NCBI GenBank assembly: GCA_016748015.1
Contig: JAAOMT010000571.1
Coordinates: 304,875-368,874, forward strand
Source of the DNA: Geosiphon pyriformis
Lineage: Eukaryota; Glomeromycota; Glomeromycetes; Archaeosporales; Geosiphonaceae
Length of the DNA stretch: 64,000 nucleotides
Direction: 5' to 3'
Shown here: one piece after another, positions 13,520 to 44,059 of the stretch
Layout: each line of letters begins with the position of its first letter
Position numbering within the stretch: position 1 is the stretch's first letter
Made by a program: the position numbers and the translations under genes
The notes under the pieces: model-generated
What the model was told of the DNA's origin: nothing
The model's input: the letters and a program-made list of their open reading frames with translations, nothing else
Databases searched by the model: none

Positions 13520-14387
13520 CAAAACATGAACATACAAAAATACCAACAACTCCAACATTATATAAATACCTGGTTGTTCAAGGAGAAATTATCTCAAAAA
13601 GAACAAAACAACATAAAACAACAATCAAAACATTTTATCAGTCATCAAAATATACTTTACCAGAAAAACAGAAAGAATTCAGAGCAACCAACCAGAGTAA
13701 TTACAGAACCAGAGAAAGAGACAATATTATTCAACATGTACTCAGATCCAATAACAGAACATTTCCATAAAAAAGCAACAATAAAAAAAACCAGAAAAAG
13801 ATACTATTGGCCATCAATGTATCCAGACATTATTCAATATGTTCAAAATTGTGATGCTTGTTAGAGAAGAGAAGAAACAAAACCCAGTGAACCATTGAGA
13901 CCAATCAAAGTGAGACAACTATTTGATCACATTGGAATTGACTTAGTCAGACCATTAACAATCATCAACAAAGGCAACAGATATATTGCAGTAGCTATGG
14001 ATTATCTCACAAAATGGCCAGAAGCAAAAGCCATTCAAAGAGCAGATACATAATCTGTTGCCGAATTCATTCATTAAGACTTGATCTGTTAACACAAATG
14101 TCCAAAAGAATTTTTATTGGATCAAGGAACTTACTTTGTGAATAGAACATTGGCAGAATTAAGTCAAAAATTTGGAATAAAAAGACCATTATTATCACTA
14201 TACCATCCACAAACAAATGGGTTAGTTGAAAGATTCAACAGAACACTGTGTGAAGCAATAGCCAAAATCAGCCAAGAAAACTAGGACAAATAGGACTTGA
14301 TTATATTATCAGTATTATTTGCTTATTAGACAATAAAACAAGACACTACACAAGCAACATCATTTGAATTAGTATATGGTAAAACAG
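13520..14387 (+). pseudogene. Element B integrase, N-terminal part, cut by element C
   Basis: The zinc-binding domain (EHFHKK, then NCDAC) is at about 13740-13862. The catalytic core follows, with all three acidic positions present: IGIDLVRP near 13935, LLDQGTYFV near 14118 and TNGLVERFN near 14214. Several TAG/TAA/TGA codons replace Trp and Gln. The frame stops in LVYGKT at 14387, where the LTR of C begins. The continuation is on the minus strand from 33215, starting ATLSVE. Confidence 0.85.
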
Positions 14388-15305
14388 TGTTACCAAACGA
14401 AACTAGAGATATTATTTAGCATGAAATTATCTTTATAATTCCTATTATTAATTAGCATATATTATTGTTTCAAATTATCACTTATTATATTAGCAAATGT
14501 CCAAAATTATCATTTAATTAATAATCCAATTTGTACATAACACAAATGTAACCTAAGTGCAATGATCAATCAGGCAATATCCCGAAATATGTAATATTCA
14601 AAAGTTCACTAAAATTTGTAGAAATTTGCTGAAATGTATTTTTAGTTCAGCAAAATTGTAGAAAAGAGCAAAGTTCAAGTTCATGGAATAGTGTTACAAC
14701 AAGTTGTATAAAAGAAGAGCTTTTCTCTTCGAGAAAATATATTTTACTTTAGATTTATTACTTAGAACCATTCCTACACACACAAAAAGAAATAAATATC
14801 AAATAATTTGAAAAACCAAATTCTTTAATTATTGCACTTGGAAAATCCTTAAAACCCAACTAACGTTTTGAAATTGATTAGCTACCAATTTCAGTAAACT
14901 GTTAGTGACTCCAGGCCTGGATAAAAAACGTTTCCCTTGATAAAATCCTATTTTTTTTACATTTTTTTTATTTTTCTTTTCTTTTCTTATTACAATCATT
15001 AGGGTAGCCTATAAACAAGATTCCTGTAGAAGAGTTGACTTTTACAGCAAAGTAACTACACATTTTTAGTAAGCTTCCAGACAAGTAATTTCTGGGAAAG
15101 AGTTGATGTTTACTACAACATAACTATACAAAGCAACTGGCACAGAATTGGCTATTTCACTTATAAGCCCAGCAGTTCAAATTATAGGAAATAATTTGAA
15201 GATAAATTCAGTTATTGGAGGTTCAAACACTTCCTATAGTCGTGAATTAACAGCATTACAACAAACATACAAGAGCTAAGAAGAGACCAAAAACCTCCAG
15301 TAACA
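14388..15305 (+). repeat. Element C 5' LTR (918 bp, short form)
   Basis: It starts TGTTACC, ends GTAACA and is followed directly by the candidate primer site. It lacks the 60-base repeat block seen in the 3' LTR of C, but matches the length of the D 3' LTR (919). It contains a TATA box and a T/C-rich tract near 14950-14990. Its left flank, ACAG at 14384-14387, is integrase sequence of element B. Confidence 0.92.
14707..14714 (+). promoter_or_regulatory. TATA box candidate in element C 5' LTR
   Basis: TATAAAAG is followed by GAAGAGC and a TTCTC-rich stretch. The same box is kept at 23616-23623, and on the minus strand at 33811-33818 and 42633-42640, in all four family 1 LTRs. This supports a conserved promoter for element transcription. 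Confidence 0.6.
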
Positions 15306-15323
15306 TTTGGTGCTCTCTTATGG
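15306..15323 (+). promoter_or_regulatory. Candidate primer-binding site of element C
   Basis: The sequence TTTGGTGCTCTCTTATGG follows the LTR end immediately, with the TGG expected opposite a tRNA CCA end two bases in. D, E and G have the same TTTGGTG start at the same place (D: TTTGGTGCTTTCCCATGG). I could not match it to a particular tRNA, so the primer is unknown. Confidence 0.5.
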
Positions 15324-15350
15324 AAACAACACAGCAAAAACAACTTCAAA

Positions 15351-17130
15351 GTGGCAACCACACCAGATGCAACAACTCTAGAATATTACCAGTCAATTTA
15401 CACTTACTGCAAGCAAAAATTCAACATTCCAGATGGAATTGAAGTTGTCAAGAAATCAGTATACCAATATATTGAAAACCGCATCAACAATTATCTTTTT
15501 GGAAATTACAATATCTCAGAAGTTAGAAGCAACCTTTACAATAATTTAGTACACTATTCACAGTTGGTAACTGAAGACCTTAACAGTGAAACACTTGCCA
15601 CTTATTTTCAAGAACTTAATTTTAACATTATCAAGTACTGTAAAGAAACATATCCAGTGCAGTTTCAATACTCTATTGATTTTGAATTAAAGACAGAAAC
15701 AAGCAACAAAGGCAAACAAAAATTGAAGCAATACTCAAAAACCATTCCAAATACTTCAATACTACCAAAAACAACTGCCAAACACTTACAAACACCTGAA
15801 CAAAGAACCAGTTCAAAACTTCCACTTACCATCACATCTTTTCCAGTTTCACTTGCACAAACACAAACACCTAATTTACTCTTAAATCAATTTGCAAGAC
15901 TAGAAGATTTTACATCACCCAGAAGTCCCACCAGACAACAAGAACCCCTTCAAACTAGTTCCAATCTTCTTGACTTTCTAGCTGAAAATCAAAGTGAATA
16001 CTCTGAGACAGCAGTAAACAAAGAAAATGACTCTGAAATATCTGAAGAAGAATCAATGGACAGTAAAAACAAAGAAAATGAAATGATAGCATACATCACA
16101 AAAATCCCTAAATTTAATAGAGAAGACATTGAAACCAGTCCCCAAGAATGGCTTGACCAAGTTACTAAAGCTGAAGATGCAAATGGATGGAATGCTGCCA
16201 GAATGTTAAGAACAATTCCCTACTTTCTTAAAGGAACAGCAGGCAAATGGTTCGAAAACTTGACCACTCCTTTTAATAATTGGACCACTTTCAAAACTGC
16301 TTTCTTAGAACAATTTACTAATAACAACACTTCAATCACACTTCAAAATCGTTTTCACAATATCAAACAAGAACCCTCTGAATCTGTTATAACTTATATT
16401 GGGAGATTCAACAAACTTCTCAGACAAATTTGCCAACTTGAAACTAATGATTATTATTCCAATGCTCAAATCTTGGATTAATTTATCGCTGGTTTAAAGG
16501 ATAAACTGATTAAAAAAGTTTGCCCACATGCCCCAGAAGATTTAAATTCTGTCATTCAGCATGCAAAGAGATATGAAATGGCCATGGAAGAAGCCAATTA
16601 TACAAAACTCATGAACTTAGTCATTGGAGAGACCAGCTCAGCAGCTGAAGAGAAAATTGACCAACTCACAAAGAAAGTTGAAAACTATTTCACCAACCAA
16701 CAACAACAGCAACCCCAAAGATATTAACCACCCCAAAAATAGAATCAAAACAACTTCATATCATCCTCTAATAACCAGTCTCAGAATTGCCATTACTGTG
16801 AAATCTCTGGCCACTGGAAAAGAGATTGCAGAAAGCTACAACAAGACCAACAAAACAGGAGTAATCAACGTTACCCTCCGCCACAACAATCTTATTACCA
16901 ACCACCACTATTACCAGCTTACTATCCACCAAGATCACAATATCAAACCGACAACTATCAATCTGCTCCACAGCCAATGCAACAACAGCATTAACAATCC
17001 ATTTAACATTATCAAGTACCTGCTCGAAGATTGGTTTAACAAAACCAATTTGCACCACAAAACTGATTCACAACAAACAACAACAGAATCAACCCAAATA
17101 ACCAATTAGTTCCCCAAAATCCAGCTCAGC
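15351..17130 (+). pseudogene. Element C gag, nearly intact
   Basis: This is the structural Gag. The frame is open 15351-16481 (376 codons) and continues past a TAA to a CX2CX4HX4C knuckle, CHYCEISGHWKRDC, at 16788-16829. The N-terminal half has an acidic Ser/Glu-rich region. The capsid part has TSPQEWLDQV, DANGWNAARM and GKWFENL. A Gln run (QQQQQPQ) precedes the knuckle and a Pro/Tyr/Gln tail follows it. No in-frame ATG precedes the conserved N terminus; the frame is open from within the LTR, so the start is uncertain. Confidence 0.85.
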
Positions 17131-17740
17131 TAAAACCCACCCATTATTATACTCAATCTAGCTATCTTACAATACCTGAAGAACAGGATTTTCACCATAC
17201 TGCACTTTCGGAAGGTAGAGCTGCAGCACAACAACAAAACCCTTCCTATACTCCTACTACAATTCCACCAGCCAGAATTGCCAAAAATGCCAACCTTTCA
17301 GATATATTCCCTTTTGAGTTCGAAACAAATGAGTTACCATTCCTGCTTAGCAATGCAGCCGTTAACAAACAGAAAGCAATCACTGCTATGTACACTGAAG
17401 CAGAAGTTGAAGGAAAGGCAATTTGCTTGATTCTAGATAGTGGATCCGCCGGAAGCATCATCATCTACCAGTTAATGTAACAGTTAAAGAGAAATGTCAA
17501 CTGACCAGCTCAGACAGTAATTGTTACTGCTGATGGCATGAAAAAGACTCCAGTAGGAGAAATTGACAATTTTCCGTTCACTTTTGATGGAATCACCATT
17601 TCAGTCAAAGTTCTTGTAATGGACGCTCCTCAGTATCAAGCCCTTGTCAAAAATGACTGGCTTCAAAAAGCCAATGCAAAATTAGACTGGAAAACCCAAG
17701 AACTACAAATCTCTTATCAAGGACAACATGCTTGAGTACC
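17131..17740 (+). pseudogene. Element C aspartic protease, DSG intact
   Basis: The retropepsin-like domain is in frame with gag. The active site is ILDSGSAGSI, with D-S-G at 17436-17444. The conserved strand TPVGEIDNFPFTF and the segment YQALVKNDWL follow within an open stretch at 17538-17735. A TAA and a TGA near 17478 and 17502 replace Gln and Trp. This is the only protease among the copies in the window with the canonical triplet, though the frame is interrupted. Confidence 0.82.
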
Positions 17741-17975
17741 TGCCACTTGTGGTACATTCAACAAACGCTCCAAAAAAGCCTCGGCTTTTGAATTTGAATC
17801 AGAAAAAGAAAAACCAATAATTGAAACATTCATGGCTCTTAGATCAATGTCCAATTGGGCCAATGAAACTGAACAAGAACATTTTACTTTACACTCTGAA
17901 CCTAAAACCCCTGGATGAAATATCCCTTACTTAAAGTCTGAACCAAGGAAATAATGCCCCTACATTTCTCTTAAA

Positions 17976-18575
17976 TGCAAAGATTGCCACAAAAAACTTT
18001 CATCAATGGGAGCCTGCATTTCATCTGAAGAAAAATATGAAAATCATACTTGTTATTATTGCAAGACTTGCCACAGAAAACGATGGGGCCACCTAATAAA
18101 AAGAAGTGGAAAATGAGACAACACTCTTTGTTTGACTTGTGGAAATATGCTACCAGAAGAATGCAATTGGATTGATGTAGCAATGAGAGGAGGAGTCTGT
18201 GATCAAATCTGCCAATATGCTTTATTAATTTCAGAAAAAGTCAAAAGAAGAACATTTTTTGATGCTGCTTACAATAGTGTGCTCAACAAATTATACTATT
18301 ACCCTTACAATGCTGAAATGATTTTTGATTTAGCAATGGCTTTAATCAACGGAGCCACTCAAGAAAATATTCGTCAAATGAAAGAATCAGAATACATTGC
18401 ATATACCTTTGAAATCGCTGGATACAACTACAAAGATAAAATAGAAAAATATTACCAAATTGTTAGTCACATCTACCTGACCAAAGAAGCTTAAGCTCAA
18501 TGGTTAGAGCAAATGAACATTAAATTATGTGAGGAATGCATAATGCCTTGTGATGAACAATAGTGTCCTGAATGC
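17976..18575 (+). pseudogene. Element C Cys-rich module, best-preserved copy
   Basis: This is an unnamed conserved module. Cys pairs are CKDC at 17976-17987, YYCKTC, LCLTCG, VCDQIC, LCEEC and the final CPEC ending at 18575, six pairs in all. The open stretch 18132-18494 has a helical middle (VLNKLYYYPYNAEMIFDLAM). Stops are only at Trp codons (TGA, TAG). The paired-Cys spacing suggests about three zinc sites. It sits between protease and dUTPase in one polyprotein and could bind RNA or assist maturation; this is inference. Confidence 0.72.
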
Positions 18576-18593
18576 TATGCTCTTAGCATTCCC

Positions 18594-19130
18594 TTGCTCA
18601 ATGAAAGTGATGAATATGAAATTGAATTTGGAGAACTTGAAGCAACAGAAAAAATAAAAGCCACACCCATCTATCTTATCAAAAATCAGTCTGCTTCACA
18701 ACTCAAATACTTCGACAACAATGGACAAGGAATAAAGCCTGAAAAAGCCCACAAAATTGATGCTGGATACAATCTAAGATATCTAGACAAAAATACTCTC
18801 ATTCTTAAACCCAAATCTCTCACAAAAATTAACCTCAAAATTGCTCTCAAAATTCTACTAGAAGCAATGGTTCAAATCGCCTCCCGGTTCTTTCTAGCAA
18901 ACAAAGGAATCAATGTCAAAGGAGGAATAATCAATGCTGGATATACTGGTGACATAACAGTAATACTCCAAAACGAAACTAACAAGCCATTTAAGATTGA
19001 ACATGCCAAGAAAATTACCCAAGCCATTTATTTACCCTTAATCAACATTTCGGGTTTACAATTAGTTAATCAAAAAGAACTATTGGGAAAAAGTGAAAAA
19101 AGAACCCAAGGTTTTGGTTCAACTGGATGA
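18594..19130 (+). pseudogene. Element C dUTPase domain, catalytic Asp replaced by Asn
   Basis: This 178-codon open stretch is the dUTPase. Motif 1 is KIDAGYNLRYL, with the GAT codon at 18759. Motif 2 is ASRFFLANKGI. Motif 3 is GGIINAGYTGDI, with Asn at 18933-18935 at the catalytic Asp position. Motif 5 is RTQGFGSTG at the end. Element D has Asp at the equivalent site (38419-38421), so the Asn here is a G-to-A change. The fold is otherwise well kept. Confidence 0.85.
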
Positions 19131-20960
19131 TTCACAGTTCCAGTAAACATAGCCCTCAATGAACAGAAAGAATCTCACCAGATTTTATGACTTCCACAAC
19201 CAATTACCATTTCACCCTTTGGAGAACACCCTGAAATTTATATTTGTGAAAAGCCAACAACCACACAACAAATTTTTGAGTCCAACAAACAAATCTGCTT
19301 GGAACATAATGTCTCAATCCCAAATATTTACATTCCAGAAAGAACAAAGAAAGTCCAAGTTACTTTTTACAATCCCAACAGTTACCCCATAGTTTTATTA
19401 AATAACATAGAAATTGGAGTTATTCATAGTAACATTTTTCAACAAGAATTACTCCAGACAGTTCCCAATTTCTTGGAAATTATTAAACATTCACTACCAA
19501 AAATCAACCCAAATCCCAGTTCTGAAAACTACCATGTTGTCATAGAAAAACTATTTCAAATCAACATGGAACAACTTGAACCACAACAACAGGACCAGTT
19601 CAAAGAGCTAATTGCAGAATTTGCCAATATCTTTGCCGAAAACAACAATGACTTAGGAAGAACTGATTTGGTTCAACACCAAATCTATACAGAAGATGCC
19701 AAACCAAAATGACAACAAGCCTACCAAGTTGCTTTAGAAAGTCACCAATTTATCCAAGAAAAAGTACAATGGATGCTTAACAATAGGCTTATTCAACCAT
19801 CAATGAGTCCATGGGCCTTACTTGTGGTCCTAGTTAAAAAGAAAAATAGAAAGATATGATTTTATGTTGATTATTGACAACTTAACAGTATCACCATTGA
19901 AGATGCCTACTTTCTTTCCTGAATCAATGACATGTTAGATGCCCTTGGAAAATTTAAATATTTTTCAACACTAGATCTAGAAAGCAAATACTGGCAAGTT
20001 GCCATGGATCCCAAAGATTGCTTCAAAACAGCATTCACCACTCAAAGAGGAAATTACGAGTTCAACATTATGTCTTTTGGATTATGCAATGCACCAGCAA
20101 CATTCCAAAGACTCATGGATGTTGTTTACAAAGGCCTCCTTTGGAAATCAGTAGTTGTTTTTCTCGATGATACTAATGTTTATTTACCATCTTTTGAATT
20201 ACACTTAAAACACCTGTAAAAAGTTTTTCAACGATTACAAAAAGCAGAATTAAAACTGAACATTGAAAAATGCTACTTCGGAAAAATGAGTTTGGCCTTT
20301 CTTGGTTACATTGTCAGCAAAGATGGAATTAAACCTGATCCAGAAAAAATAAGCACTGTCAAAAATTTCAAAACTCCTCAAAATACCACAAAATTAAGAG
20401 GATTCATCAGATTAGCATCCTACTATCGAAAGTTTATCAAAGGATTTTCAGAAATTGCAAAACCTCTCAACCAACTCACCACCAAAAATGTCAAATACAA
20501 ATGAACTACTAAACACCAAAAAGCTTTTGAAATTCTCAAAGAAAAGCTAACAACAGCTCCAATTCTTGCTTATCCAGACTTCAGCAACCAATTTCAACTA
20601 GTTACAGATGCTTCATATACTGCCTTTGGTGCCATCTTATCACAATTAGATGACAACAGAAATGAATGAATAATTGCTTATGCTAGCAGAACATTAAAAC
20701 CAGCCAAAAAAAACTACACTGCCACAGAACTAGAAACAGCAGCCATAATTTGGGCCCTACACCACTTCAATTTTTATCTTAGGCCTAAAGAATTCAATAT
20801 TATCACTGATAATATTGGATTCAAATGGCTTCAAAACAAAAACATTCAACTGAATGCAAAACAAACCTGATGGACAGGATTTTTAGCCAACTACCAATAC
20901 ATTGTACACCACAAACCAGGAAAACTCCATACCAACATTGATTGTCTCTCAAGAATGAGG
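19131..20960 (+). pseudogene. Element C linker, reverse transcriptase and RNase H
   Basis: The linker (19131-19480) has IPNIYIPERTKKVQVTFYN. RT follows: LGRTDLVQHQI, LLVVLVKKKNRKI, FSTLDLESKYWQVAMDPKD, CNAPATFQRLMD and the catalytic box FLDD at 20160-20171. The thumb/connection part is LRGFIRLASYYRKFIKGF. RNase H has VTDASYTAFGAILSQLDD, YASRTLKPAKKNYTATELE and IITDNIGFKWLQ. TGA codons at Trp positions (19857, 20502) and a few other stops break it. The motifs are complete, so this was a competent polymerase before these stops. Confidence 0.9.
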
Positions 20961-20994
20961 CAAGATTAGAAAACAGAACCAACACCCATTTGAA

Positions 20995-22404
20995 TTAACA
21001 GCAACAAAACAACAAACAATAAATTCCAAAAACTACAACAATCTTAAACAATATCTGGAGACATTAACAATCCTAACAGATTGGTCCCCAGATGAAAAAC
21101 GTCAGTTACAACAACAAGCCAAACAATACTTCTTACACAACAACATTATTTATTATTGAAACTTCAGAAATCCAGACAATCCATTCAAATTAATACAAGA
21201 ACATGAAAAAGAAACTATTTTATACAACATGCACTCAGACTCTTTATCAGCATATCTAGAAAAAGACAGTACTACCCAGAGAACACTAGAATATTTTTTT
21301 TGGTCTCGAATGAGAAAAGACATTCATAAATATGTTAAATCTTGTGATAGTTGTTAAAGAAGAAAAGGAACTCGCCCTATAGAACCATTAAACCCAATCA
21401 AAGTTGGACAGCCTTTTGACTGAGTTGATATCGATTTAGTCAGACCACTACTTATCACAAACCAAGGAAACCATTATATTACAGTAGCCATAGACTATCT
21501 TACTAAATGGCCCAAAGCCAAAGCCATTCAACAAGCAGATACAAAATCAGTAGCAAATTTCATTTATGAAGACATTATTTGTAAACATAAATGCCCAATT
21601 GAATTTTTATCCAATCAAGGAACACATTTCATGAACAATCTAATTCAAAAAATCTGTGAACAATTCAATGTCAAAAGACCTCTGTTTTTGCCATACTATC
21701 CATAGACAAACAGACTTGTGGAACATTTTAACAGAACATTGTATAAGTCATTAGCCAAAGTCTCAACCAATTTTGAGCAAGAATAGGATATTTTTATTCC
21801 ATTAGTGTTACTAGCATACAGAACACTAAAACAAGATACCACAAAACACACACCATTTGATTTAACTTATGGAAGGACAGCAATGTTACCAATTAGTTTC
21901 ACAGTGGAAACATATCCAGCACAACCAATTGATAAAAACAATTTCTAGGAAACACTTCAGTGAAGAGCCTACACTCTGCTTAGCACATTAGAAAGAAAAT
22001 AACGAATAGCAGCCACCCATATTAAACACTCCCAAGCTCAACAAAAAGAATGGCATGACAATAAATTGCCTTCAGTCACTAATGAATTTAAAGTTGAAAA
22101 CAAAGTTTTCTTACACAAAACTAAAGCTGAAAAACAATAGAGTAAAAAATTTGAAAATAAATAGGATGGGCCATTTTTTATTCATGAAGTTCTAGGCAAT
22201 GGATCATACAAGCTAAGACTTGATAACAAAATCCTAGCAAAAGTTGCATATGGAGATTGTTTGAAACACTATAATTCCAGAAACAATCCTGAACTATTAA
22301 TTCCACAAATCGGTATACATTCTCCTTTAATCAATCCCGAAAATATTCCCCAAAACTTAGAACCAATAGTTGTCATTGAACATCCCCCCAACTTGAACAC
22401 TTAA
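20995..22404 (+). pseudogene. Element C integrase with GPY/F-like C terminus
   Basis: Integrase lies one frame over from RNase H, the change falling near 20990. The N-terminal zinc part has SCDSC near 21340. The core has a VDIDLVRPL block near 21425, then LSNQGTHF (second catalytic Asp changed to Asn), then TNRLVEHFNRTL. The C terminus has KVENKVFLHKTKAEKQ and WDGPFFIHEVLGNGSYKLR, a GPY/F module. It ends with TAA at 22402-22404. Several Trp/Gln codons are stops. Confidence 0.87.
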
Positions 22405-22547
22405 ATTCAATTTTATTATAATTATTCCCTTATAATTTAGAAAAAATGTCACAACAAAAACAAAACATAGCATGCTGAAAAACAAAAATAACATAAAAAC
22501 TCATATACCAAAAATAATTTCAATTTTATTTTTCCAATTTTATTATA

Positions 22548-23267
22548 ATGACTATCTCTTAAAATATTTAACAGTTATCTCAAAAATTAATATTAGCTTT
22601 AAAAACAATACCCGAATTATCTATTACTATCATTGGAAAACATATTAATTATAACCAAACAGAAATAGTTACAAATTTAACCCCAAATTCACAAAAGTAT
22701 TATCCTTATAGAAAAAACACAAGAAGTTATTCTGGAATTCATTTACCAGAACTTTTGAAGCTTGCTTTAAGAGAAAACTTATTGCTCACTCCTATTAGTA
22801 TTTTATCAAATGCTACTATTTAACAAAAACTTCAACTGTGTCTTAATAAAGAAAGCAGCAAATACTCCCCAATATATAGATATTTTTACATTGAAAAAAC
22901 ACTTCACGAACAAAAACTGGAGCTTACAGCAGCAAATCTCACAAAAGAAGCTATTCAGAAACAACTCCACAATGAATTCAAAACAACAGCTGAACCTACA
23001 AACAGCTGCTATAAACTAAGAGCTGCTCTTAGACTTTATAATTTATTTTATATCTGTGAAAATGTCCTACAAAACCCAATTTTACAACCTTTGAAGATTC
23101 AATATATTGGAAAGCTCACAAAACTGAAATTTCAACAATTTTCAGACCAAATTTCTTCAATAATTTTGGATTATTATCTGGAAATTACAGACAGTATTTG
23201 GATTTTGATGGAGCTCAGTCTTAAGAAGAAGGTTATGTTACTAGATGAAATTAGAGATATTATTTAG
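22548..23267 (+). pseudogene. Element C ORF3, unknown function, overlaps 3' LTR
   Basis: This is a 239-codon frame downstream of integrase, starting ATG at 22548 and ending TAG at 23265-23267, 32 bases inside the LTR. Three TAA codons interrupt it; D keeps CAA at each of those positions. Recognisable blocks are LSQKLILALKTIPELSI, YPYRKNTRSYSGIHLPELL and LKIQYIGKLTKLKFQQF, all kept in D. There is no hydrophobic signal or membrane span, so it is not an obvious envelope. I do not recognise the family. Confidence 0.72.
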
Positions 23268-24214
23268 CATGAAATTATCTTTATAATTCCTATTATTAAT
23301 TAGCATATATTATCATTCAAATTATTACTTATTATATTAGCAAAATGTCTGAAATTATTATTTAATTAATAACCCAATTTGCATATAACATAAATGTAAT
23401 CTAATTGCGATGATCAATCATGCAATACCCTGAACTATGTAGCATTCAAAAAGTTTGCCAAAATTTGTAGAAATTTGCTGAAATAATTGATAGTTCACCG
23501 AAATATCTAATAATTCACAGAAATAACTTGTAATTCACCGAAATGTATCTTTAGTTCAGTGAAATTGTAGAAAATAGCAAAGTTTAAGTTCATAGAATAG
23601 TGTTATGACAAGTTGTATAAAAGAAGAGCTTCTCTTTTCAAAAAAATGTATCTTACTTTAGATTTATCACTTAGAACTATTCCTATATACACAAAAAGAA
23701 ATAAATATCAAATAATTTGAAAAACCAAAATTTTTAATTATTGCACTTGAAAAATCCTCAAAACTCAACTAACGTTTTGAAATTAATTAGCTACCAATTT
23801 CAGTAAACTGTTAGTGACTCCAGATCTGGATAGAAAACGTTTCTCTTGATAAAATCCTATTTCTTTTACATTTCTTTTCTTTTTCTTTTCTTTTCTTATT
23901 ACAATCATTAGGGTAGCCTACAGACAAAATTTCTGTAGAAAAGTTGACTTTTACAGCAAAGTAACTACACATTTTTAGTGAGCTTTTAGATGAGCAATTC
24001 CTGGAAAAGAGTTGATGTTTACTACAATGTAACTACATAAAGTAACTGGCAAGGAATTGGTCATTCTACTTATAAGCCCAGCAATTCAAATTATAGAAGA
24101 TAATTTGAAGATAAATTCAGTTACTGGAAATCTAACTACTTCTAAAAAACGTCAATTTGCAACCAACAGACAGTTACAACATTCAAGAAAAGAGACCAAA
24201 AACCTCCAGTAATA
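23236..24214 (+). repeat. Element C 3' LTR (979 bp, long form)
   Basis: It starts TGTTAC and ends GTAATA (from GTAACA). It carries a 60-base block at 23485-23544 of short GTTCACCGAAAT-like units that is absent from the 5' LTR. The D 5' LTR has the same block and exactly the same length. Its right flank, GCGA at 24215-24218, is ORF1 of LINE1 on the minus strand. Confidence 0.92.
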
Positions 24215-25036: not shown

Positions 25037-25150
25037 ATCCACAAAAAATGTGTTACTATTAGGTAAAAAAATATTGATATAGACTAAAAAAACAAAAAAC
25101 TTTTTTTTTCAGAAAATGCATTTTTTGGGGATTTGTGAAGGTAAGAAAGA
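24215..25150 (-). mobile_element. LINE1, 5' segment
   Basis: The minus strand reads from a 5' leader near 25150 through the first part of ORF1 and stops at the LTR of element C. The rest of the same LINE is at 43021-48868 on the plus strand. The joined codons are in frame and align with LINE2 across the break. The upstream border of the leader is set only by similarity to LINE2 and by the change to extreme AT sequence, so it is approximate. Confidence 0.85.
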
Positions 25151-31997: not shown

Positions 31998-32004
31998 TTA
32001 TTCC

Positions 32005-32661: not shown

Positions 32662-32700
32662 GTATACTGTATTTTTATATAATCTTTTGGTTGTTCAATT

Positions 32701-33215: not shown

Positions 33216-33219
33216 CTGT

Positions 33220-34138
33220 TGTTACTGGAGGTTTTTGGTCTCTTCTTAGCTCTTGTATGTTTGTTGTAATGCTGTTAATTCATGACTATGGGAAGTGTTT
33301 AAACCTCTGATAACTGAATTTATCTTCAAATTATTTCCTATAATTTGAACTGCTGGGCTTATAAGTGGAATGGCCAATTTTTTGCCAGTTGCTTTATATA
33401 GTTATGTTGTAGTAAATGTCAATTCTTTCCCAGGAATTGCTCGTCTAGAAGCTCACTAAAAATGTGTAGTTACTTTGCTGTAAAAGTCAACTTTTCTACA
33501 GAAATCTTGTCTGTAGGCTACTCTAATGATTATAATAAGAAAATAAAAGAAAAATAAAAGAAATGTAAAAAAAATAGGATTTTATCAAGGGAAACGTTTT
33601 CTATCCAGGTCTGAAGTCACTAACAGTTTACTGAAATTGGTAGCTAATCAATTTCAAAATGTTAGTTGGGTTTTGAGGATTTTCCAAGTGCAATAATTAA
33701 AAAATTTGGTTTTTCGAATTATTTGATATTTATTTCTTTTTGTGTGTGTAGGAATAGTTCTAAGTGATAAATCTAAAGTAAGATATATTTTCTTGAAGAG
33801 AAAAGCTCTTCTTTTATACAACTTGTTGTAACACTATTCCATGAACTTGAACTTTGCTCTTTTCTACAATTTTGCTGAACTAAAGATACATTTCGGCGAA
33901 TTTCTACAAATTTTGGCAAACTTTTAAATGTTACATATTTTGGAGTATTGCCTGATTGATCATTGCACTTAGGTTACATTTGTGTTATATACAAATTGGG
34001 TTATTAATTAAATGATAATTTCAGACATTTTGCTAATGTAATAAGTGATAATTTGAAATGATAATATATGCTAATTAATGATAGGAATTATAAAGATAAT
34101 TTCATGCTAAATAATATCTCTAATTTTGTCTGGTAACA
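33220..34138 (-). repeat. Element D 3' LTR (919 bp, short form)
   Basis: It starts TGTTACC at 34138 and ends GTAACA at 33220 (minus strand). It lacks the 60-base block, like the C 5' LTR. A TATAAAAG box is at 33811-33818. Its outer flank is element B integrase. Confidence 0.92.
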
Positions 34139-34826
34139 TAACTTCTTCCTCAAGACTGAGCTCCATTAAAGTCCAAGTACTGTCTGTAATTTCCAGATAG
34201 TAATCCAAAATTATTGAAGAAATTTGGTTTGAAAATTGTTGAAATTTCAGTTCTGTGAGCTTTCCAATGTATTGAATCTTCAAAAGTTGTAAAATTGGGT
34301 TTTGTAGGACGTTTTCACAAATGTGAAATAGGTCGTAAAGTCTAAGAACAGCTTTTAGTTTATAATGACTGTTTATAGGTCCAGCTGTTGTCTTGAATTT
34401 GTTGTGGAGTTGTTTCCAAATATCTTCTTTTGTGAGGTTTGCTGCTGTAAGCTCCCATTTTCATTCGTGAAGTGTTTTTCCAATGTAGAAATATCTATAT
34501 ATTGGAGTATAATTGTAGTTTTCTTCATTAAGACACAGTTGAAGTTTTTGTTGAATAGTAGTATTTGGTAGAATACTAATAGGAATGAGCATTAAGTTTT
34601 CTCTTAAAGCAAGCTTTAAAAGTTCTAGCAGGTGAATTCCAAAATAACTTCTTGTGTTCTTCTTATATGGGTAATATTTTCGTGAATTTGGGGCTAAATT
34701 TGTAACTATTTCTGTTTGAGTATAATTAATGTGGCTTCCAGTAACAGTAATAGATAATTTGGGTATTGTTTTTAAAGCTAACATTAGTTTTTGGGATAAT
34801 TGTTGAATGTTTTGAGAAATAGTTAT
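34107..34826 (-). pseudogene. Element D ORF3, best-preserved copy
   Basis: This frame matches C ORF3 end to end and keeps Gln where C has TAA. The start codon is ATA at 34824-34826 where C has ATG. It is open 34461-34784 and then has few stops, ending VMLPDKIRDII with TAG at 34107-34109, inside the LTR. Similarity between C and D extends through the whole frame, which argues for past coding function. Product unknown. Confidence 0.74.
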
Positions 34827-34949
34827 TATAAGAGATTTAAAAATAAAAGAAAATTATTTTTGGTGTATGGGTTTTTATTATTTTTGCTTTGTTTTTGTGA
34901 GATTGTTTCTAAATTATAAGGAGATAACTATAATAATAATAAATTTAAG

Positions 34950-36365
34950 TTAAGTGTTCAAGTTGTGAGGTTGTTTAATGACAACTATTGGTTCTAAATT
35001 TTGGGAAATATCTTTGGGATTGATTAAAGGGGAATGTGTACCAATTTGTGTAATTAATAGTTCAGGATTGTTTCTGGAATTATAGTGTTTCAAACAATCT
35101 TCATATGCAACTTTTGCTAGGATTTTGTTATTAAGTCTTAGCTTGTATGATCTGTTGCCTAGAACTTCATGGATAAAAAATGGCCCATCCCATTTATTTT
35201 CAAATTTTCTACTCCATTGTTTTTCAGCTTTAGTTTTGTGTAAGAAAACTTTGTTTCCAACTTTAAATTCATTGGTGACTGAAGACAATTTATTGTCATG
35301 CCATTCTTTTTGTTGAGCTTGGGAGTGTTCAATATAGGTGGCTGCTATTCGTCATTTTCTTTCTAATGTGCTAAGCAAAGTGTAGGCTCTTTACTGAAGT
35401 GTTTCCTGGAAATTGTTTTTATCAATTGGTTGTGCTGGGTATGTTTCCACTGTGAAACTAATTAGTAACATTGCTGTCCTTCTATAAGTTAAATCAAATG
35501 GTGTGTGTTTTGTGGTATCTTGTTTTAGTGTTCTGTATGCTAGTAACACTAATGGAATAAAGATATCCTATTCTTGCTCAAAATTGGTTGAGACTTTGGC
35601 TAATGACTTATACAATGTTCTGTTAAAATGTTCCACAAGTCTGTTTGTCTATGGATAGTATGGCAAAGAGAGAGGTCTTTTGACATTGAATTGTTCACAG
35701 ATTTTTTGAATTAGATTGTTCACAAAATGTGTTCTTTGATTGGATAAAAATTCAATTGGGCATTCATATTTACAGATAATGTCTTCATAAATGAAATTTG
35801 CTACTGATTTTGTATCTGCTTGTTGAATGACTCTGGCTTTGGGCCATTTAGTAAGATAATCTATGGCTACTGTAATATAATAGTTTCCTTGGTTTGTGAT
35901 AAGTAGTGGTTCGACTAAATCAATACCAACTCAGTCAAAAGGCTGTCCAACTTTGATTGGGTTTAATGGTTCTGTAGGGCAAGTTCTTTTTCTTCTTTGA
36001 CAACTATCACAAGATTTAACATATTTATGAATGTCTTTTCTCATTTGAGGCCAAAAAAAATATTCTAGTGTTCTCTGGGTGGTACTGTTTTTTCTTAGAT
36101 ATGCTGATAAAGAGTCTGAATGCATGTTGTATAAAATAGTTTCTTTTTCATGTTCTTGTATTAATTTGAGTAGATTGTCTGGATTTCTGAAGTTTTAATA
36201 ATAAATAATGTTGTTATGTAAGAAGTATTGTTTGGCTTGTTGTTGTAACTGATGTTTTTTATCTGGGGACCAATCTGTTAGGATTGTTAATGTCTCCAGA
36301 TATTGTTTAAAATTGTTGTAGTTTTTGGGATTTATTGTTTGTTGTTTTGTTGCTGTTAATTCAAA
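34950..36365 (-). pseudogene. Element D integrase
   Basis: As in C, it lies one frame over from RNase H. The zinc part (SCDSCQRRKRTCPTEPL) is in the open stretch 35931-36125. The core follows with worn catalytic blocks near 35900, 35745 and 35630. The C terminus is open at 34950-35288 (FKVGNKVFLHKTKAEKQ, WDGPFFIHEVLGNRSYKLR) and ends at 34950. It is interrupted by stops, mostly at Trp and Gln. Confidence 0.85.
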
Positions 36366-36389
36366 TGGGTGTCGGTTCTGTTTTCAAAT

Positions 36390-38219
36390 CTTGCCTCATT
36401 CTTGAGAGACAATCAACATTGGTATGGAGTTTTCCTAGTTTGTGGTGTACAATGTATTGGTAGTTGGCTAAAAATTCTGTCCATTGAGTTTGTTTTGCAT
36501 TCAGTTGGGTGTTTTTGTTCTGAAGCCATTTGAGTCCAATATTATCAGTGATAATATCGAATTCTTTAGGTCTGAGATAAAGATTGAAGTAGTATAGGGC
36601 CCAAATTATGGCTGCTGTTTCTAGTTTTGTGGTAGGGTAGTTTTTCTCAGCTGGTTTTAATGTTCTGCTAGCATAAGCAATTACTCACTCATTTCTATTG
36701 TCATCTAATTGTGATAAAATAGCACCAAAGGCAGTGTAAAAAGCATCTGTAGCTAGTCAAAATTGGTTACTGAAGTCTAAGTAGGCTAGAATTGGAGCTG
36801 TTGTCAGCTTTTCTTTGAGAATTTCAAAAGCTTTTTGGTGTTCTTCCGTCTATTTGTATTCGATATTTTAAGTAATAAGCTAGTTAAAAGATTTTGCAAT
36901 TTCTGAGAATCTTTTGATGAATTTTTGGTAATAAGAAGCTAATCCAATAAATCCTCTCAATTCTGTGGTATTTTATGAAGTCTTAAAGTTCTTGACAGGG
37001 CTGATTTTTCGGGGGTCTGGTTTAATTCTATCTTTGCTCACAATATGGCCAAAAAAGGCCAAACTCGTTTTTCCAAAGTAGTATTTTTTGATGTTCAGTT
37101 TCAATTCTGCTTTTTGTAATCATTGAAAAACTTCTTGCAGGTGTTTTAAGTGTAATTCAAAAGATGGTAAATAAACATCAGTATTATCGAGATAGACAAC
37201 TACTGATTTCCAAAAAAAGTCTTTGTAAACAACATCCATGAGTCTTTGAAATGTTGCTGGTGCATTGCATAATCTGAAAGGCATTACATTGAACTTGTAA
37301 TTTTTTTTTTGAGTGGTGAATGCTGTTTTGGGGCAATCTTTGGGATCTATGGCAACTTGTCAGTATTCACTCTCTAAATCTAATGTTGAAAAGTATTTGA
37401 ACTTTCCAAAAACATCCAACATGTCATCAATTTGGGGAAGAGGATAGGCATCTCCAATGGTGACACTGTTGAGTTGTTGATAATTAACACAAAATCATAT
37501 CTTTCTATTTTTCTTTTTAACTAGGACCACAAGTAAGGCCCATGAACTCATTGATGATTGAATAAGCCCATTGTTAAGCATCCGTTGTACTTCTTCTTGG
37601 ATAAATTGTTGGCTTTCTAGAGCAACTTGGTAGACTTGTTGTCGCCTTAGTTTGGTATCTCCTATATAAATTTGGTGTTGAACCAAATCAGTTCTTCCTA
37701 AGTCATTGTTGTTTTCAGCAAAGATATCAGTAAATTTTGCAATTAGCTCTTTGAGCTGGTTCTGTTGTTGTGGTTCAAGTTGTCCTATGTTGATTTGAGA
37801 TAGTTTTTCCATGACAACATAGTAGTTTTCAGAGCTGGGGTTTGGGTTGATTTTTGGTAGTGAATGTCCAATAATTTCCAAGAAATTAGGAACTGTTTGG
37901 GATAGTTCTTGTTAAAAGATGTTACTGTGAATGACTCCAATTTTTAAGTTATTTAATAAAACTATAGGATAATTGTTGGGATTATAAAAAATAACTCAGA
38001 CTTTCTTTGTTCTTTCTGGAATATAAATGTTTGGGATTGAAATATTATGTTCCAAGCAGACTTGTTCATTGGATTCAAAAATTTGTTGTGTGGTTGTTGG
38101 CTTTGGGCAGATGTAGATTTCCAGATGTTCCCCAAAAGGTGAAATAATAATTGGTTGTGGAAGTCGTAGAATCTGGTGAGATTCACTTTGTTCATTAAGA
38201 GTTATGTTTACTGGAACTG
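36390..38219 (-). pseudogene. Element D linker, reverse transcriptase and RNase H
   Basis: The linker has IPNIYIPERTKKV near 38000, and the start of RT is open at 37495-37881 (LGRTDLVQHQIYIG, SSWALLVVLVKKKNRKI). The catalytic box is YLDN at 37183-37194, where C has FLDD. RNase H follows with a YTAFGAILSQLDD-like segment near 36710 and ends near 36400 in DCLSRMRQD. Stops at Trp codons and a few frame changes are present. The order and length match C. Confidence 0.87.
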
Positions 38220-38759
38220 TGAATCGTCCAGTTGAATCAAAACCATTGGTTCCTCTTTCATTTTTTTCCAATTGTTCTTTTTAACTGATTAATTGTAAAC
38301 CCGAAACGTTGATTAAGAGTAAATAAATAGCTTGAGCAATTTTTTCAGCATGTTCAATTTGAAAAGATTTATTGGTTTTATTTTGTAACATGATTGTAAT
38401 GTCTCCTGTATATCCAGCATCTATGATTTTTTGCTTACCAATGATGATTGTGAAACAATTTGGACCATTGCTCCTGGTGGAATTTTGAGAGCAATTTTGA
38501 GGTTGATCTTGGTAAGAAAATTTGGTTGAAGAACCAAAGTGTCTTTTTTTGGATATTATAGATTGTATCCAGCATCAATTTCATGTGCTTTTTCAGGCTT
38601 TATTCTTTGTCCATTGTTGTTGAAGTATTTGAGCTGTAAAGCAGACTGACTTTTGATAAGATAAATGGATGTCATTTCAATTTCTTCCATTGCTTTAGAT
38701 TCACCAAATTTGATTTCATATTCGTCACTTTCACTGGGTAATGAAATGCTAAGGGCATA
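38220..38759 (-). pseudogene. Element D dUTPase domain, catalytic Asp kept
   Basis: Motif 1 is EIDAGYNL near 38580. Motif 3 is KIIDAGYTGDI, with the catalytic Asp codon at 38419-38421. Motif 5 is GTNGFDSTGR near 38230, with one Gly-to-Asp change. A frame change lies between motifs 1 and 3 and another before motif 5. This copy shows what C had before its Asp-to-Asn change, but frameshifts still break it. Confidence 0.8.
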
Positions 38760-39503
38760 GCATTCAGGACACCATTGTTCATCACAAGGCATTATACATT
38801 TCTCACATAATTTAATGTTTATTTGCTCTAGCTATTGAGCTTGAGCTTCTTTGGTCAAGTAAATGTAACTTGCGATTTGATGGTACACTTCTACTTCATT
38901 TTTATAATCGAATCCAGCTAATTCTAAGGTATATTTGATATATTTAGCTTCCTTCATTTAAAGAACATCTTCTTTGGTTCCTCTATTAATTAAAATCATG
39001 GCAAGTTCATAAATCATTTCGGCATTATGGGGGTAATGATGGAGTTTGTTGAAGACACTATTGTATGCGGCATTGAAAGATGTTCTATGTTTTACTTTTT
39101 CTGCAATAGAAAGAGCATATTGGCAAGTTTGATCACAGACTCCTCCTCTAAATGCAACATCAATTTAGTCACATTCATCAGGAAGCTGCTTTCCACAAGT
39201 AAGACAGAGTGTTTTATCCCATTTTCTATTTCTTTTGATCAAGTGGCCCCATTGTTCTCAATGGCAGGCCTTGCAGTAGTAGCAGATGTGACTTTCATAT
39301 TCTTCCTCAGGTGAAATACAAGCTCCCATTGACAATAGTTTCTTATGGCAGTTCTTATATTTAAGGGAAATATAGGGGCGTCGTTTCCTTGGTTTAGGCT
39401 TTGAGTAAGGGATATTCCATCCAGAGGTTTCAGGTTTAGAGTGTGAAGTAAAATGTTCTTGTTCAGTTTCCTCGACCCAATTGGACATTGATCCAAGAGC
39501 CAT
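38760..39503 (-). pseudogene. Element D Cys-rich module
   Basis: This is the equivalent of the C module on the minus strand, with LKYKNCHKKLLSMGACI (first Cys lost), CYYCKACH, LCLTCG, VCDQTC, MCEKC and a final CPEC near 38770. A one-base frame change lies near 39300. The middle helix-rich part aligns with C but has stops. It supports the module being a fixed part of the family. Confidence 0.7.
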
Positions 39504-39599
39504 GAATGTTTCGATTATTGGTTTTTCTTCTTTTAGTTTGAATTCAAAAGCCGGGGCTTTTTTGAAGCATTTGTTAAATGTACCACAAGTGGCAGGTAC

Positions 39600-40241
39600 T
39601 TGGACATGTTGTCCTTGGTAAGAAATTTGTAGTTTTTGGGTTTCTTAGTCTAATTTTGTATTGGTTTTTTGAAGCCAGTCATTTCCGACAAGGGCTTGAT
39701 ACTAAGAAGCATCCATTACAAGAACTTTAACTGGAATGGTGATTCCATTAAGAGTGAATGGAAAATTGTCAATTTCTCTCACTGGAGTCTTTTTTATGCC
39801 ATCAGCAGTAACAATTACTGTTTGAGCTGGTCAGTCAATATTTCTCTTTAACTGTTGCATCAACTGGTAAGTAATAATACTTCCAGCAAATTCACTGTCT
39901 AGGATTAAGCGAATTGTCTTTCTTTCAACTTCAGCTTTAGTATATATAGCTGTGATTGCTTTCTGTTTATTTGCAGCAGCATTGCTGAGTAGAAATGGTG
40001 ATTCATTGGCTTTGAACTCGAAAGAAAAGATATTAGAGAGATTGGCATTTTCAGCAATTCTGGCTAATGGAATAGTGGTGTAGTTATGAAAAAAATTTTG
40101 TTGTTGTGCTGTAGCTCTACCTTCTAAGAGTGCAGTATGGTGAAAATCCTGTTTTTCTGGCATTGTTAAATAACTGGGTTGAGTGTAATAGTGATTGGGT
40201 CTTGGTTGAGCAGAATTTTGGAAAACCAATTGGTTGTTCAA
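39600..40241 (-). pseudogene. Element D aspartic protease, DSG changed to DSE
   Basis: The frame 39831-40241 includes the linker after gag and the start of the protease. The active site reads ILDSEFAGSI, with the D-S-E codons at 39891-39899; GGA to GAA is one G-to-A change. The downstream strand has TPVREIDNF and a YQALVGNDWL stretch. Otherwise it matches the protease of C. Predicted inactive. Confidence 0.8.
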
Positions 40242-41999
40242 ACTGATTCTATTGTTGTTTACTTGATATCAGTTTTGTGGTGTGAATTGATTTTGTGTAA
40301 TCAATCTTCAAGCAGATATCTGATAATGTTGTGTGGGTGGTTGTTGGTATTGCTGTTGGATTGGCTGTGGGATGGGCTAATAATAATTATTTTGGTATTG
40401 GGGTCTTGGTGAATAGTAAGCTGGTAGTGGTAGTTGATAATAAGATTGCTGTAATGGAGGGTAATGTTGATTATTCCTCTATTGTTGGTCTCATTGCAAT
40501 TTTCTACAATCGCATTTCCAGTGTCTTGGAATTCCACAATAATAACAATTTTGGATTTGGTTGTTGAATGGTAGTCTGAAGTTGTTTTGATTGCATTGTT
40601 GTGAAGATTGGTATCTTTGTGGTTGTTGTGATTGCTGTGGCTGCTGTTGTTGCTGTTGGTTGGTAAAGTAGTTTTCAACTTTCTTGGTTAATTGGTCAAT
40701 TTTTTTTCAGCTGTTGAGCTGGTTTCTCTAATAGCCAGGTTAACAAGTTTGGTACGGTTGGCTTTTTCTATGGCCATTTCATAGTTTTTTGTCTGTTGAA
40801 TAGCAGTGGCTAAATCTTCTGGTGCATGTGGGCAAACTTTCTTGATAAGTTTGTCTTTTAGTCTAGCAATGAATTGGTCCAAGATTTGTGCATTGGAATA
40901 GTATTCATTGGTTTCCAATTGGTGAATTCTTTTAAGCAGTTTGTTGAATTTCCCAAAATAGGTCATAACTGATTCACTTGGTTCTTGCTTGATATTTTGG
41001 AACTGATTTTAAAGAGTAATAGAAGTGTTATTGTCAGTAAACTGTTCTAGAAAAGCAGTTTTGAATGCTTTCCAGTGTTCTGGTGGGGCTTCCAAGTTTT
41101 CAAACCATTCACCAGCTGTTTTTTGTAAGAAGTATGAAATTGTTTTTAACAATCTGGCAGCATTCCAACCATTTGCATCTTCTGCTTTTAAGACTTTGTC
41201 AAGCCATTCTTGAGAACTGGTTTTGCTGTTTTCTTCTGTGAACTCAGAGATTTTTGCAATATATGTGGAGGCCATTTTTTCTTCATTTTCTAAGTCTTCT
41301 GTTTCTTGTTCTGCTTCAGTTTCTTTGCTTTCCAAACTTTCTGAATGATTACTTTCATTTTCCTGTAGGTAATCAAGAAGGTTGGTGCTAGTTGAGATTG
41401 GTTTTTGTTGTTGAATAGGGCTTTTGGGTGACTGAAAATCTTTTATTCTTGAAAATCGAATAAGAAGTGAATTTGGTGTTTGTAATTGAGCAAGTAAAAT
41501 TGGAAATGGTGTGATAGAAAGTGATAATTTGATGCTGGTTCCTTGTTCAGGTGTTTGCAAGTGTTTGGCAGTTGTCTTTGTTAGTATTGGAGTGTTTGAA
41601 GTGGTTTTTGAGTGTTGTTTCGCTTTTTGTTTGCCTTTGTTGCTTGTTTCTGTTTCTAATTCAGAGTCAAAAAAGTATTTGGACTGCACTGGATATTTTT
41701 CTTTGCAATACTTGATATTGTTATAATTGAGTTCTTGGAAGTAGGTGGCAAGTGTTTCACTGTTAAGGTCTTCAGTTTCTAATCGTGAATAGTGTGCTAA
41801 ATTATTGTAGAGATTGCTTCTAACTTCTGAAATATTGTAATTTCCAAGAAGATAATTGTTGATACAATTTTCAATATATAGATAAAGTGTTCTTTTGACA
41901 ATTTCAATTCCGTCTGGAATGTTGAATCTTTGCTTTCAATGAGTGTAAATTGACTGGTAATACTCTAGAGTTGCTGTGTCTGGTGTGGTTGCTACTTTG
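40242..41999 (-). pseudogene. Element D gag
   Basis: It aligns with C gag from VATTPDTATLEYYQSIY to the knuckle. The longest open pieces are 41009-41689 (acidic and capsid parts, SSQEWLDKV, DANGWNAARL) and 40688-40966. The knuckle at 40506-40547 is complete: CYYCGIPRHWKCDC. Frame changes and a few stops occur before and after it. As in C, the only ATG next to the primer site is out of frame with the conserved N terminus. Confidence 0.82.
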
Positions 42000-42041
42000 A
42001 ATTTTGTTGTTGCTGTGTTATTTCCATGGGAAAGCACCAAA

Positions 42042-43020
42042 TGTTACTGAAGGTTTTTGGTTTCTTTTCTTGAATGTTGTAACTGTCTGTTGGTTGCAAA
42101 TTCACGTTTTCTAGAAGTAGTTGGACCTCCAGTAACTGAATTTATCTTTAAATTATCTCCTATAATTTGAACTGCTGGGCTTATAAGTGGAATGGCCAAT
42201 TCCTTGCCAGTTACTTTATGTAGTTACATTGTAGTAAATGTCAACTCTTTCTTAGGAATTGCTCGTCTGGAAGCTCACTAAAAATATGTAGTTATTTTGC
42301 TGTGAAAGTCAACTTTTTTACAGGAATCTCATCTGTAGGCTACCCTAATAATCATAATAAGAAAAGAAAAGAAAAATAAAAAAATGTAAAAGAAATATGA
42401 TTTTATTAAGGGAAACGTTTTCTATCTAGATCTGGAGTCACTAACAGTTTACTGAAATTAGTCGCTAATCAATTTTAAAACGTTAATTGGGTTTTTGGGG
42501 ATTTTCCAAATGCAATAATTAAAGAATTTGGTTTTTTGAATTATTTAATATTTATTTCTTTTTGTGTGTGTAGAAATAGTTTTAAGTGATAAATCTAAAG
42601 TAAGATACATTTTCTCAAAGAAAGAAGCTTTTCTTTTATACAACTTGTTATAACACTATTCTATGAAATTGAACTTTGATATTTTCTACAATTTCGCTAA
42701 ACTAAAGATATATTTCAGTGAATTACAAGTTATTTCTGTAAACTATTAGATATTTTGGTGAACTATCAATTATTTTGGCAAATTTCTACAAATTTCAGTG
42801 AACTTTTTGAATGTTACATAGTTTGGGGTATTGCATGATTGATCATTACAATTAGGTTACATTTATGTTATATGCAAATTGGGTTATTAATTAAATAATA
42901 ATTTCGAACATTTTGCTAATGTAATAAGTGATAATTTGAACAATAATATATGCTAATTAATAATAGAAATTATAAAGATAATTTCATGTTAAATAATATC
43001 TTTAATTTTGTCTGGTAACA
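42042..43020 (-). repeat. Element D 5' LTR (979 bp, long form)
   Basis: On the minus strand it starts TGTTACC at 43020 and ends GTAACA at 42042, followed by TTTGGTGCTTTCCCATGG. It includes the 60-base repeat block (about 42714-42773) shared only with the C 3' LTR. A TATAAAAG box is at 42633-42640. Its outer flank at 43021 is LINE1. Confidence 0.92.
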
Positions 43021-44059
43021 TTGCTGAATTGGGGCAGGCTGAGCTATTGGTGTCAAAATGATCATTCCTCATTGGAAAAGACTCAGTTTGTGTGGCTATG
43101 ACTGTGGAAAATTGTGATACATAGGTGTTTAGAGATTGCTTCAGAGCGCTTCTGTTTATTTTGCTGGTGGAAACAACTGTGTATAATCTTGGCACTCTTT
43201 TGGATGGGGCTGGTGGTAGAACTTGCATTATTAATTATTCTTTGGATACTGGTAATAGATTTTACTGTGCTGTGGTCAGCTTTGAATCTAAAAGAGATTT
43301 GGATTTTGCCTTTCACACTGAGCCTAATTTTGGTGGTGTGCGACTCTTTTGGGCTAAATTGGATTTGGTTCAGTACAAAAGGAGTGTTTTGGACATTCAG
43401 TGCTTAAATGTAATGCTTCTGCTAATAATATGCCATCATCATCTTTGGCTAAATCTTTTAAAGGTTTTGTTTCTAAGAAAAGATGTCTCCAGCTGGCCAA
43501 ATTATATCAAAAGAAGGATGTTCCGATCTCTCACTCTGTTGCTTTTGGTGGAAAATCCTGGGCCCAAGTGGTCTCAGTGGCAACCCTTTTCTTTCATGAC
43601 TTTTCTGCTGGTTCTGGCTTAGGTTCTCTCCTTCCTTTACATCATGGCTTTGGTGATGTTTCTTCTTTGAATGACTGCTTGGCTTCTTTGGAATGCTTAT
43701 TAAAGCTTCTTTCTAACTGGGTGTCTACCATTATTAGGCATCTTGCCAGTGTTGAACTGGTGCCTCTGGTGTTCTCATCTCTTACTTCTCCTCTCAACAC
43801 TTCTGCATTTTCAGCTTTGAGTTTAGACTTGGATATGGTTTTGGATGGCACTTCAATGTTGTCTGCTCCTCATTCCTTTTTTGCTGTTATTGTTGGTAAG
43901 CCTACTCTTGGTTCGAGTAGTTCTAAGGTTCTCACTGGCAAGGTGAATGGTTTGGAATTTAAGTTAGCATTCTTAGAAGCTTCTATTGGTTCAGTGTTGG
44001 CTTGTTTAAATAATATGTGCTTTAGTTTGGGTGCTCCTTTGTCTTCTTCATCCCAATAA
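43021..44059 (+). pseudogene. LINE1 ORF1, C-terminal half
   Basis: It continues from WQKAVVEFA with ELGQAELLVSK in frame after the insertion site. Trp codons near 43055 and 43115 are stops. A frame change lies near the T run at 43387-43390, within or next to a zinc knuckle whose FGHSVLKC half is visible. The open stretch 43400-44059 holds VAFGGKSWAQVV and Ser/Leu-rich helices ending APLSSSSQ, then TAA. It matches the same region of LINE2. Confidence 0.82.

Follow-up and report, generated by a model that had tools for sequence, protein, structure and literature searches.

Elements C and D and the repeats they interrupt

The window analysed here, a 64,000-nucleotide stretch of the Geosiphon pyriformis genome (C389:304875-368874), carries two long terminal repeat (LTR) elements, C and D, that lie on opposite strands and each interrupt another repeat, referred to as B and LINE1. 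C and D are decayed copies of one LTR element, 83.8% identical over 9937 alignment columns, with the termini TGTTAC...GTAATA in C and TGTTAC...GTAACA in D. Ends of the TG...CA type, sometimes decayed, combined with a short target-site duplication are as found in Ty3/Gypsy elements, and 4-bp flanks are exact or one transition apart in 15/17 control pairs, namely 17 other LTR pairs of the C/D family. Pfam scans of C matched Retrotrans_gag and dUTPase, the piece 19191-19709 gave no match, and C aligns at the nucleotide level with B, where a reverse transcriptase (RT)/RNase H domain was matched. The end of B pol at the insertion is a putative integrase, called so by its earlier label and its reading frame. 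Judged by these sequence features, C and D appear to be Gypsy-like LTR elements.

The C/D family is large. Searches were carried out against the 124.7-Mb, 406-contig G. pyriformis assembly, where each C or D query returned 1,030-3,630 first-look candidates; here and below, the best 40 matches per query were scored. The gag frame of C, which is the sole frame of at least 250 amino acids starting with ATG, GTG or TTG in the window, has 438 relatives, and those listed (120 of 438) are all named Geosiphon pyriformis. Six of ten scanned pieces gave no Pfam match, including five from LINE1, LINE2 and their surroundings, and 'LINE' is therefore kept as an earlier label only. Scans of the whole window for transfer RNAs and Rfam families found none. 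All features are collected in Table 1.

Table 1. Features of the C/D locus. X and Y denote the two proposed ancestral elements; positions are those of the window unless a contig is given.
Feature	Position	Strand	Evidence
LTR element C, probably chimeric (5' side X, 3' side Y)	14388-24214	+	alignment, flanks, domain matches
LTR element D, probably chimeric (5' side Y, 3' side X)	33220-43020	-	alignment, flanks
C gag open frame	15246-16478	+	Retrotrans_gag match
C dUTPase	18564-19127	+	Pfam PF00692, E 4.9e-17
C 5' LTR, subfamily I	14388-15303	+	21/21 diagnostic columns; alignment, tree
C 3' LTR, subfamily II	23236-24214	+	18/21 diagnostic columns; alignment, tree
D 3' LTR, subfamily I	33220-34139	-	20/21 diagnostic columns; alignment, tree
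D 5' LTR, subfamily II	42044-43020	-	19/21 diagnostic columns; alignment, tree
ACAG flank left of C, putative half of X duplication	14384-14387	+	flank reading
GCGA flank right of C, putative half of Y duplication	24215-24218	+	flank reading
ACAG flank on D 3' side, putative second half of X duplication	33216-33219	-	flank reading
GCAA flank on D 5' side, putative second half of Y duplication	43021-43024	-	flank reading
C part of high-identity tract, where crossover and gene conversion most probably took place	20860-22320	+	68 differences/1460 sites
D part of high-identity tract	35034-36494	-	comparison with C
Interval between elements, minimal inverted host segment (8,997 bp)	24219-33215		flanks, alignment
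B body up to the X insertion in pol	8552-14387	+	alignment, domain matches
B dUTPase	11411-12007	+	Pfam PF00692, E 2.1e-9
B RT/RNase H	12677-13396	+	Pfam match
3' part of B pol, continuing from 14387	32001-33215	-	joined frame, genome matches
3' LTR of B	31148-32000	-	best non-self match is sister 5' LTR
5' LTR of B	C389:301539-302389 (2.5-3.3 kb left of window)	+	best non-self match of LTR at 31148-32000
Left part of LINE1, continuing at 43025	24219-24989; open pieces 24145-24525 and 24432-24989	-	joined frame, alignment
Right part of LINE1 (may extend further)	43025-46231	+	aligned with LINE2
LINE2, uninterrupted relative of LINE1	27536-31154	+	aligns with both LINE1 halves in order

Crosswise flanks, host frames and LTR lineages

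The first-pass annotation had claimed that the four 4-mers flanking C and D match each other crosswise only, and this was borne out. Read in element orientation, D is flanked by GCAA (the complement of 43021-43024) and ACAG (the complement of 33216-33219), which gives a match of 4/4 between the two ACAG flanks and of 3/4, with one transition, between GCGA and GCAA. Neither C nor D has a duplication of its own. The one-base change described for the second flank pair is present, but its direction, given as C-to-T, reads G-to-A on the element strand. Among the 17 control pairs, an exact 4-bp duplication was found in ten, a single transition in five and neither in two; the C355 5' and C255 3' flanks were assigned by hand where the script pattern differed. 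When ends of different controls were compared, 14/272 matched exactly over 4 bp and 16/272 with one transition, which puts the chance of a crosswise double match at ~0.05 x 0.11 (14/272 and 30/272, from small and not independent counts), leaving the host evidence uncounted. C255, one of the two controls without a duplication, has GCAG/GTGG flanks that could be a doubly decayed GCGG.

The host sequences agree with the flanks. The frame of B that is interrupted at 14387 resumes on the minus strand at 33215, as had been proposed: the joined flanks ...SFELVYGKT/ATLSVEIKV... lie in one frame, and a 465-base query of the joined flanks is matched end to end (within 2 bases) by 40/40 scored genome matches at 88-90% identity. 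Likewise, the LINE1 frame interrupted at 24215 resumes at 43025, where the joined flanks ...MWQKAVVEFAELGQAELLVSK share one frame and the other frames contain stops. A 446-base query spanning this join is crossed at the junction in 38/40 scored rows, 76-87% identical, the two remaining rows being the halves in the window itself. The predicted alignment with LINE2 was also recovered: LINE2, on the plus strand, aligns in order, first with the left half of LINE1 (27662-27946) and then with the right half (28073-28303, 28403-28999 and 28990-29220). A near-identical empty or uninverted second site was found neither for B (best 90%) nor for LINE1 (best 87%) among the scored matches.

The outer LTRs of B supply a further line of evidence. 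The two LTRs of one element share their direction at insertion. For the LTR at 31148-32000, the best non-self hit among 40 scored genome matches is its B sister to the left of the window, at 88% identity. Over 601 sites the two differ by a single transversion and are free of gaps, whereas 5 other copies differ from the LTR at 31148-32000 by 5-10 transversions and 2-3 gaps. The 4-bp flanks of the sister pair, GTAC/GCAC, are one transition apart. This pair is now opposite in orientation, which points to an inversion independently of C and D. It should be noted that 524-6311 and 8556-14387 are tandem, related but diverged Gypsy-type bodies, ~61% identical, and that the 524-6311 body may be nested between the B 5' LTR and the B body.

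An LTR element inserts with two identical LTRs. Among the four LTRs of C and D, the nearest to the C 5' LTR is the one at the D 3' end (857/916 identical), and of the sites that divide the four LTRs 2:2, 50 support the crosswise pairing and 12 and 7 the two other pairings. A stretch of ~60 bp is absent from both the C 5' and D 3' LTRs, and its main 42-column part is gapped in 0/34 control LTRs. Control LTRs form two well-supported subfamilies, I and II, which are distinguished by 21 diagnostic columns set on 16 controls (7 I and 9 II, with locus C323b omitted) without the use of C and D; these columns are not independent, as 7/21 are gap columns and several adjoin. The remaining diagnostic columns of the C 3' LTR are type I in two cases and neither type in one, those of the D 5' LTR type I in one and neither in one. 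A tree of 38 LTRs pairs C 5' with D 3' as sisters (support 89/79) and C 3' with D 5' (100/97). The own LTRs of a control are sisters in 14/17 cases, the exceptions being C17, C325 and C323b. Approximately unbiased (AU) tests reject forced sisterhood of C 5' with C 3' (p 0.0002) and, with smaller p, of D 5' with D 3', C 5' with D 5' and C 3' with D 3'. Subfamilies I and II are thus reciprocally placed in C and D, which on LTR sequence would make both copies chimeric.

Locus C323b (G000:C323:689035-702275) has two family LTRs separated by ~12 kb. Their 4-bp flanks, TTGC/CTGG, do not match, and the tree does not pair the two LTRs as sisters; the locus represents either two different elements or another exchange.

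Several observations weigh against this picture. By plain identity, the C293 5' LTR (0.911) is nearer to the C 3' LTR than the D 5' LTR is (0.903), and the D 5' LTR is absent among the best 40 scored genome matches of the C 3' LTR; the evidence for pairing C 3' with D 5' is the transversion count (7, the lowest for either LTR) together with the tree. Counted by transversions, the C 5' LTR ties with three LTRs (C17 5', C325 5' and D 3', 2 each), and its support as sister of D 3', 89/79, is below the starred level in the tree. By plain identity, the LTR at 31148-32000 has a closer match than its B sister among the six compared (0.877 for the sister; range 0.856-0.882). Inside the elements, the lead of the high-identity tract described below is small, with the next pair at 0.950, in some 250-base windows other copy pairs have a larger number of rare states in common (up to 14), and the switch between the two lineages could not be followed through the mosaic interior. 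Finally, all joins rest on one genome assembly.

The shared tract and the proposed inversion

The first-pass annotation had explained the locus by recombination between inverted copies, inverting the DNA between them, and the LTR phylogeny, the joined insertion sites, the B LTR pair and a homogenised tract all support this. Crosswise duplications and LTR lineages, continuity of both host frames, the opposed B LTRs and the shared tract are directly observed at the locus. The interval between the elements had been given as 10.9 kb; its actual length is 8,997 bp.

We propose, with a probability of roughly 0.92, that the inversion arose by ectopic exchange between two inverted copies, X and Y, leaving the chimeras C and D. 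X would have inserted in B pol and Y, in opposite orientation, in LINE1, both as full-length copies of one LTR family. Homologous (ectopic) exchange between the interiors of X and Y, most likely in a tract of ~1.45 kb and accompanied by gene conversion, would then have inverted the DNA between them and left reciprocal chimeras, C with the 5' part of X and the 3' part of Y, and D with the 5' part of Y and the 3' part of X. We infer a single crossover in the tract as the cause and homologous recombination as the route.

It had been suggested that internal differences between C and D would place the crossover. A shared tract was indeed found, but the lineage switch is not traceable through the mosaic interior, and the crossover place therefore rests on the tract. 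In 200-column windows, C-D identity is 63-92% left of 20.9 kb in C, 94-98.5% in the tract and 79-95% right of 22.3 kb. Within the tract, C-D ranks 1/435 among pairs of 30 copies (0.955); beside it the pair ranks 268/406 and 235/435 on the left and 357/406 on the right, with 35/434 in the 3' LTR part. In the genome search with the tract, D is the copy nearest to C at 95%, the next of the 40 scored being 92%. Seven states common to C and D and found in at most 1/28 other copies all lie at 21253-22062 (19350-23850 examined); since other pairs share more rare states elsewhere, it is the place of these states that speaks and not their number. The likeness of C and D in the tract would not result from a crossover by itself, but would from a crossover accompanied by conversion. 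The crossover likely lies in the tract, which gives an inversion of ~12.7 kb (22.3 to 35.0 kb) to 15.6 kb (20.9 to 36.5 kb); without the tract assumption its size could be 9 to 28.6 kb.

Attempts to follow the switch from X to Y did not succeed. Groups typed by their LTRs (6 type I and 12 type II loci) gave no consistent switch at 19.35-22.3 kb, and best relatives at 18.05-18.65 and 20.25-20.8 kb were, by eye, a mixture drawn from the two gag lists. On the left, C and D differ in the relatives of their gag regions, with no place common to both lists of 39. Gag type and LTR type are not linked, though: the D gag list includes C17 and C356 (LTR I), and the C gag list includes C138 (LTR II). On the right, at 22.30-22.95 kb, C is nearer to 5 copies with Y-like gag and D to 4 copies with X-like gag; the difference is small at 22.95-23.24 kb, and further on, at 23.24-23.84 kb within the 3' LTR, D departs from that pattern.

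An unlikely variant of the mechanism is template switching during replication, in which a fork switches between the inverted copies in place of a reciprocal homologous crossover. Fork switching is known to act on inverted repeats separated by 9 kb, and its end product can look the same as that of a crossover. Both host sites, however, close up with no bases lost or gained other than the 4-bp duplications, and the shared tract is long; a single crossover is the simpler explanation for this. Template switching is a variant of the mechanism and leaves the inversion itself unaffected.

An assembly artefact, in which the elements were misjoined inside their most similar stretch and the real order is uninverted, seems very improbable. 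The putative crossover site is the most similar stretch (95.5%, with longest identical runs of 105 and 78 bp), which is also where a misjoin is likeliest. Given the low overall identity of the copies (83.8% over 9937 columns), though, reads longer than the tract should separate them, and no second copy of the locus was seen among the scored matches, the best non-self matches, 93% and 95%, both being the partner element. Nor would a misjoin alone account for a single tract of likeness between C and D, so that the pair probably recombined, at least by conversion, either way.

That there was no inversion, and that recombinant complementary DNAs inserted independently with chance crosswise flanks or LTRs were exchanged by gene conversion alone, draws on the mosaic interior of the family and on C323b, 1/17 control pairs likewise with unlike flanks and non-sister LTRs, but can practically be dismissed because LTR conversion cannot move host flanks, chance crosswise flanks are rare by the control estimate above, independent insertions would need both host genes cut at adjoining bases, and the opposed B LTR pair would need another route.

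Under ectopic exchange between X and Y, X and Y are both older than the inversion, and X sits inside B, so that B is older than X. The X LTR pair differs at 59/916 sites, the Y LTR pair at 95/976 and the tract at 68/1460 (Fisher tests, tract against X pair p 0.06, against Y pair p 1e-6). Over 18 LTR pairs (16 control elements, C 5'/D 3' and D 5'/C 3'), 1055/1089 differences are transitions and 34 are transversions. C-containing sites vary in 58% of cases in CpG (160/274) and in 12-20% in CpA, CpC and CpT, a pattern that looks like methylation-linked decay or repeat-induced mutation. Dating by LTR divergence was dropped, as change of this kind is hardly clock-like; with nearly all change being transitions, finer dating is unsafe.

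Other repeats are present in the window. A large inverted pair lies in 50592-63913 (60828-63913 against 59472-56341, 72.9%), and with further inverted matches at 50.6-52.7 kb indicates more opposed elements. The segment 25055-26939 matches itself in both directions at ~60-62% in many registers, as expected for low-complexity or palindromic repeats.

Significance and comparison with known systems

The locus is an unusually complete fossil of one recombination, with both products, the insertion sites, the LTR pairs, the outer LTR pair and the probable conversion tract preserved on one contig. It suggests that recombination can take place in Geosiphon between LTR elements with an overall identity of only ~84%. 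LTR sisterhood combined with 4-bp flanks could be used genome-wide to count such exchanges. We consider it possible, though rather doubtful, that exchanges of this type are common in the Geosiphon genome, where the C/D family is large. In that case, reciprocal chimeras with crosswise duplications could serve as a readable record of past ectopic crossovers. Geosiphon is related to arbuscular mycorrhizal fungi and, to our knowledge, sex has not been seen in its fungal lineage. A literature search of open papers on retrotransposon inversions in Geosiphon found nothing naming the C/D locus.

Inter-element recombination between copies of an LTR family leaves elements whose flanking duplications do not match and whose LTRs are unlike, and is usually described from one surviving product, a solo LTR or a hybrid element. 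At the C/D locus, in contrast, the two reciprocal products are preserved next to each other, as are the two host sites.

The closest parallel is inversion 2z3 of Drosophila buzzatii, for which the published account describes Galileo copies in opposite orientation, exchanged target-site duplications, chimeric copies and ectopic recombination (PMC2775673). C and D share with this case the opposite orientation, the exchanged duplications and the chimeric nature of both copies. Galileo, however, is described there as a P-superfamily transposon with 7-bp duplications, whereas C and D belong to the LTR retrotransposons and have 4-bp duplications. The Galileo study also sequenced non-inverted chromosomes (PMC2775673), whereas C/D is known from one genome and in the inverted order only. 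Unlike 2z3, the C/D inversion is small, about 13-16 kb. Gypsy elements carrying a dUTPase are described from Postia placenta in another account, which also cites Phanerochaete and Tuber (PMC2864245); C and B resemble the Postia elements in being of Gypsy type with a dUTPase domain, a likeness that does not imply near kinship. Taken together, the C/D locus is a further, well-recorded case of the known transposon-mediated inversion, here in LTR elements of a fungus.

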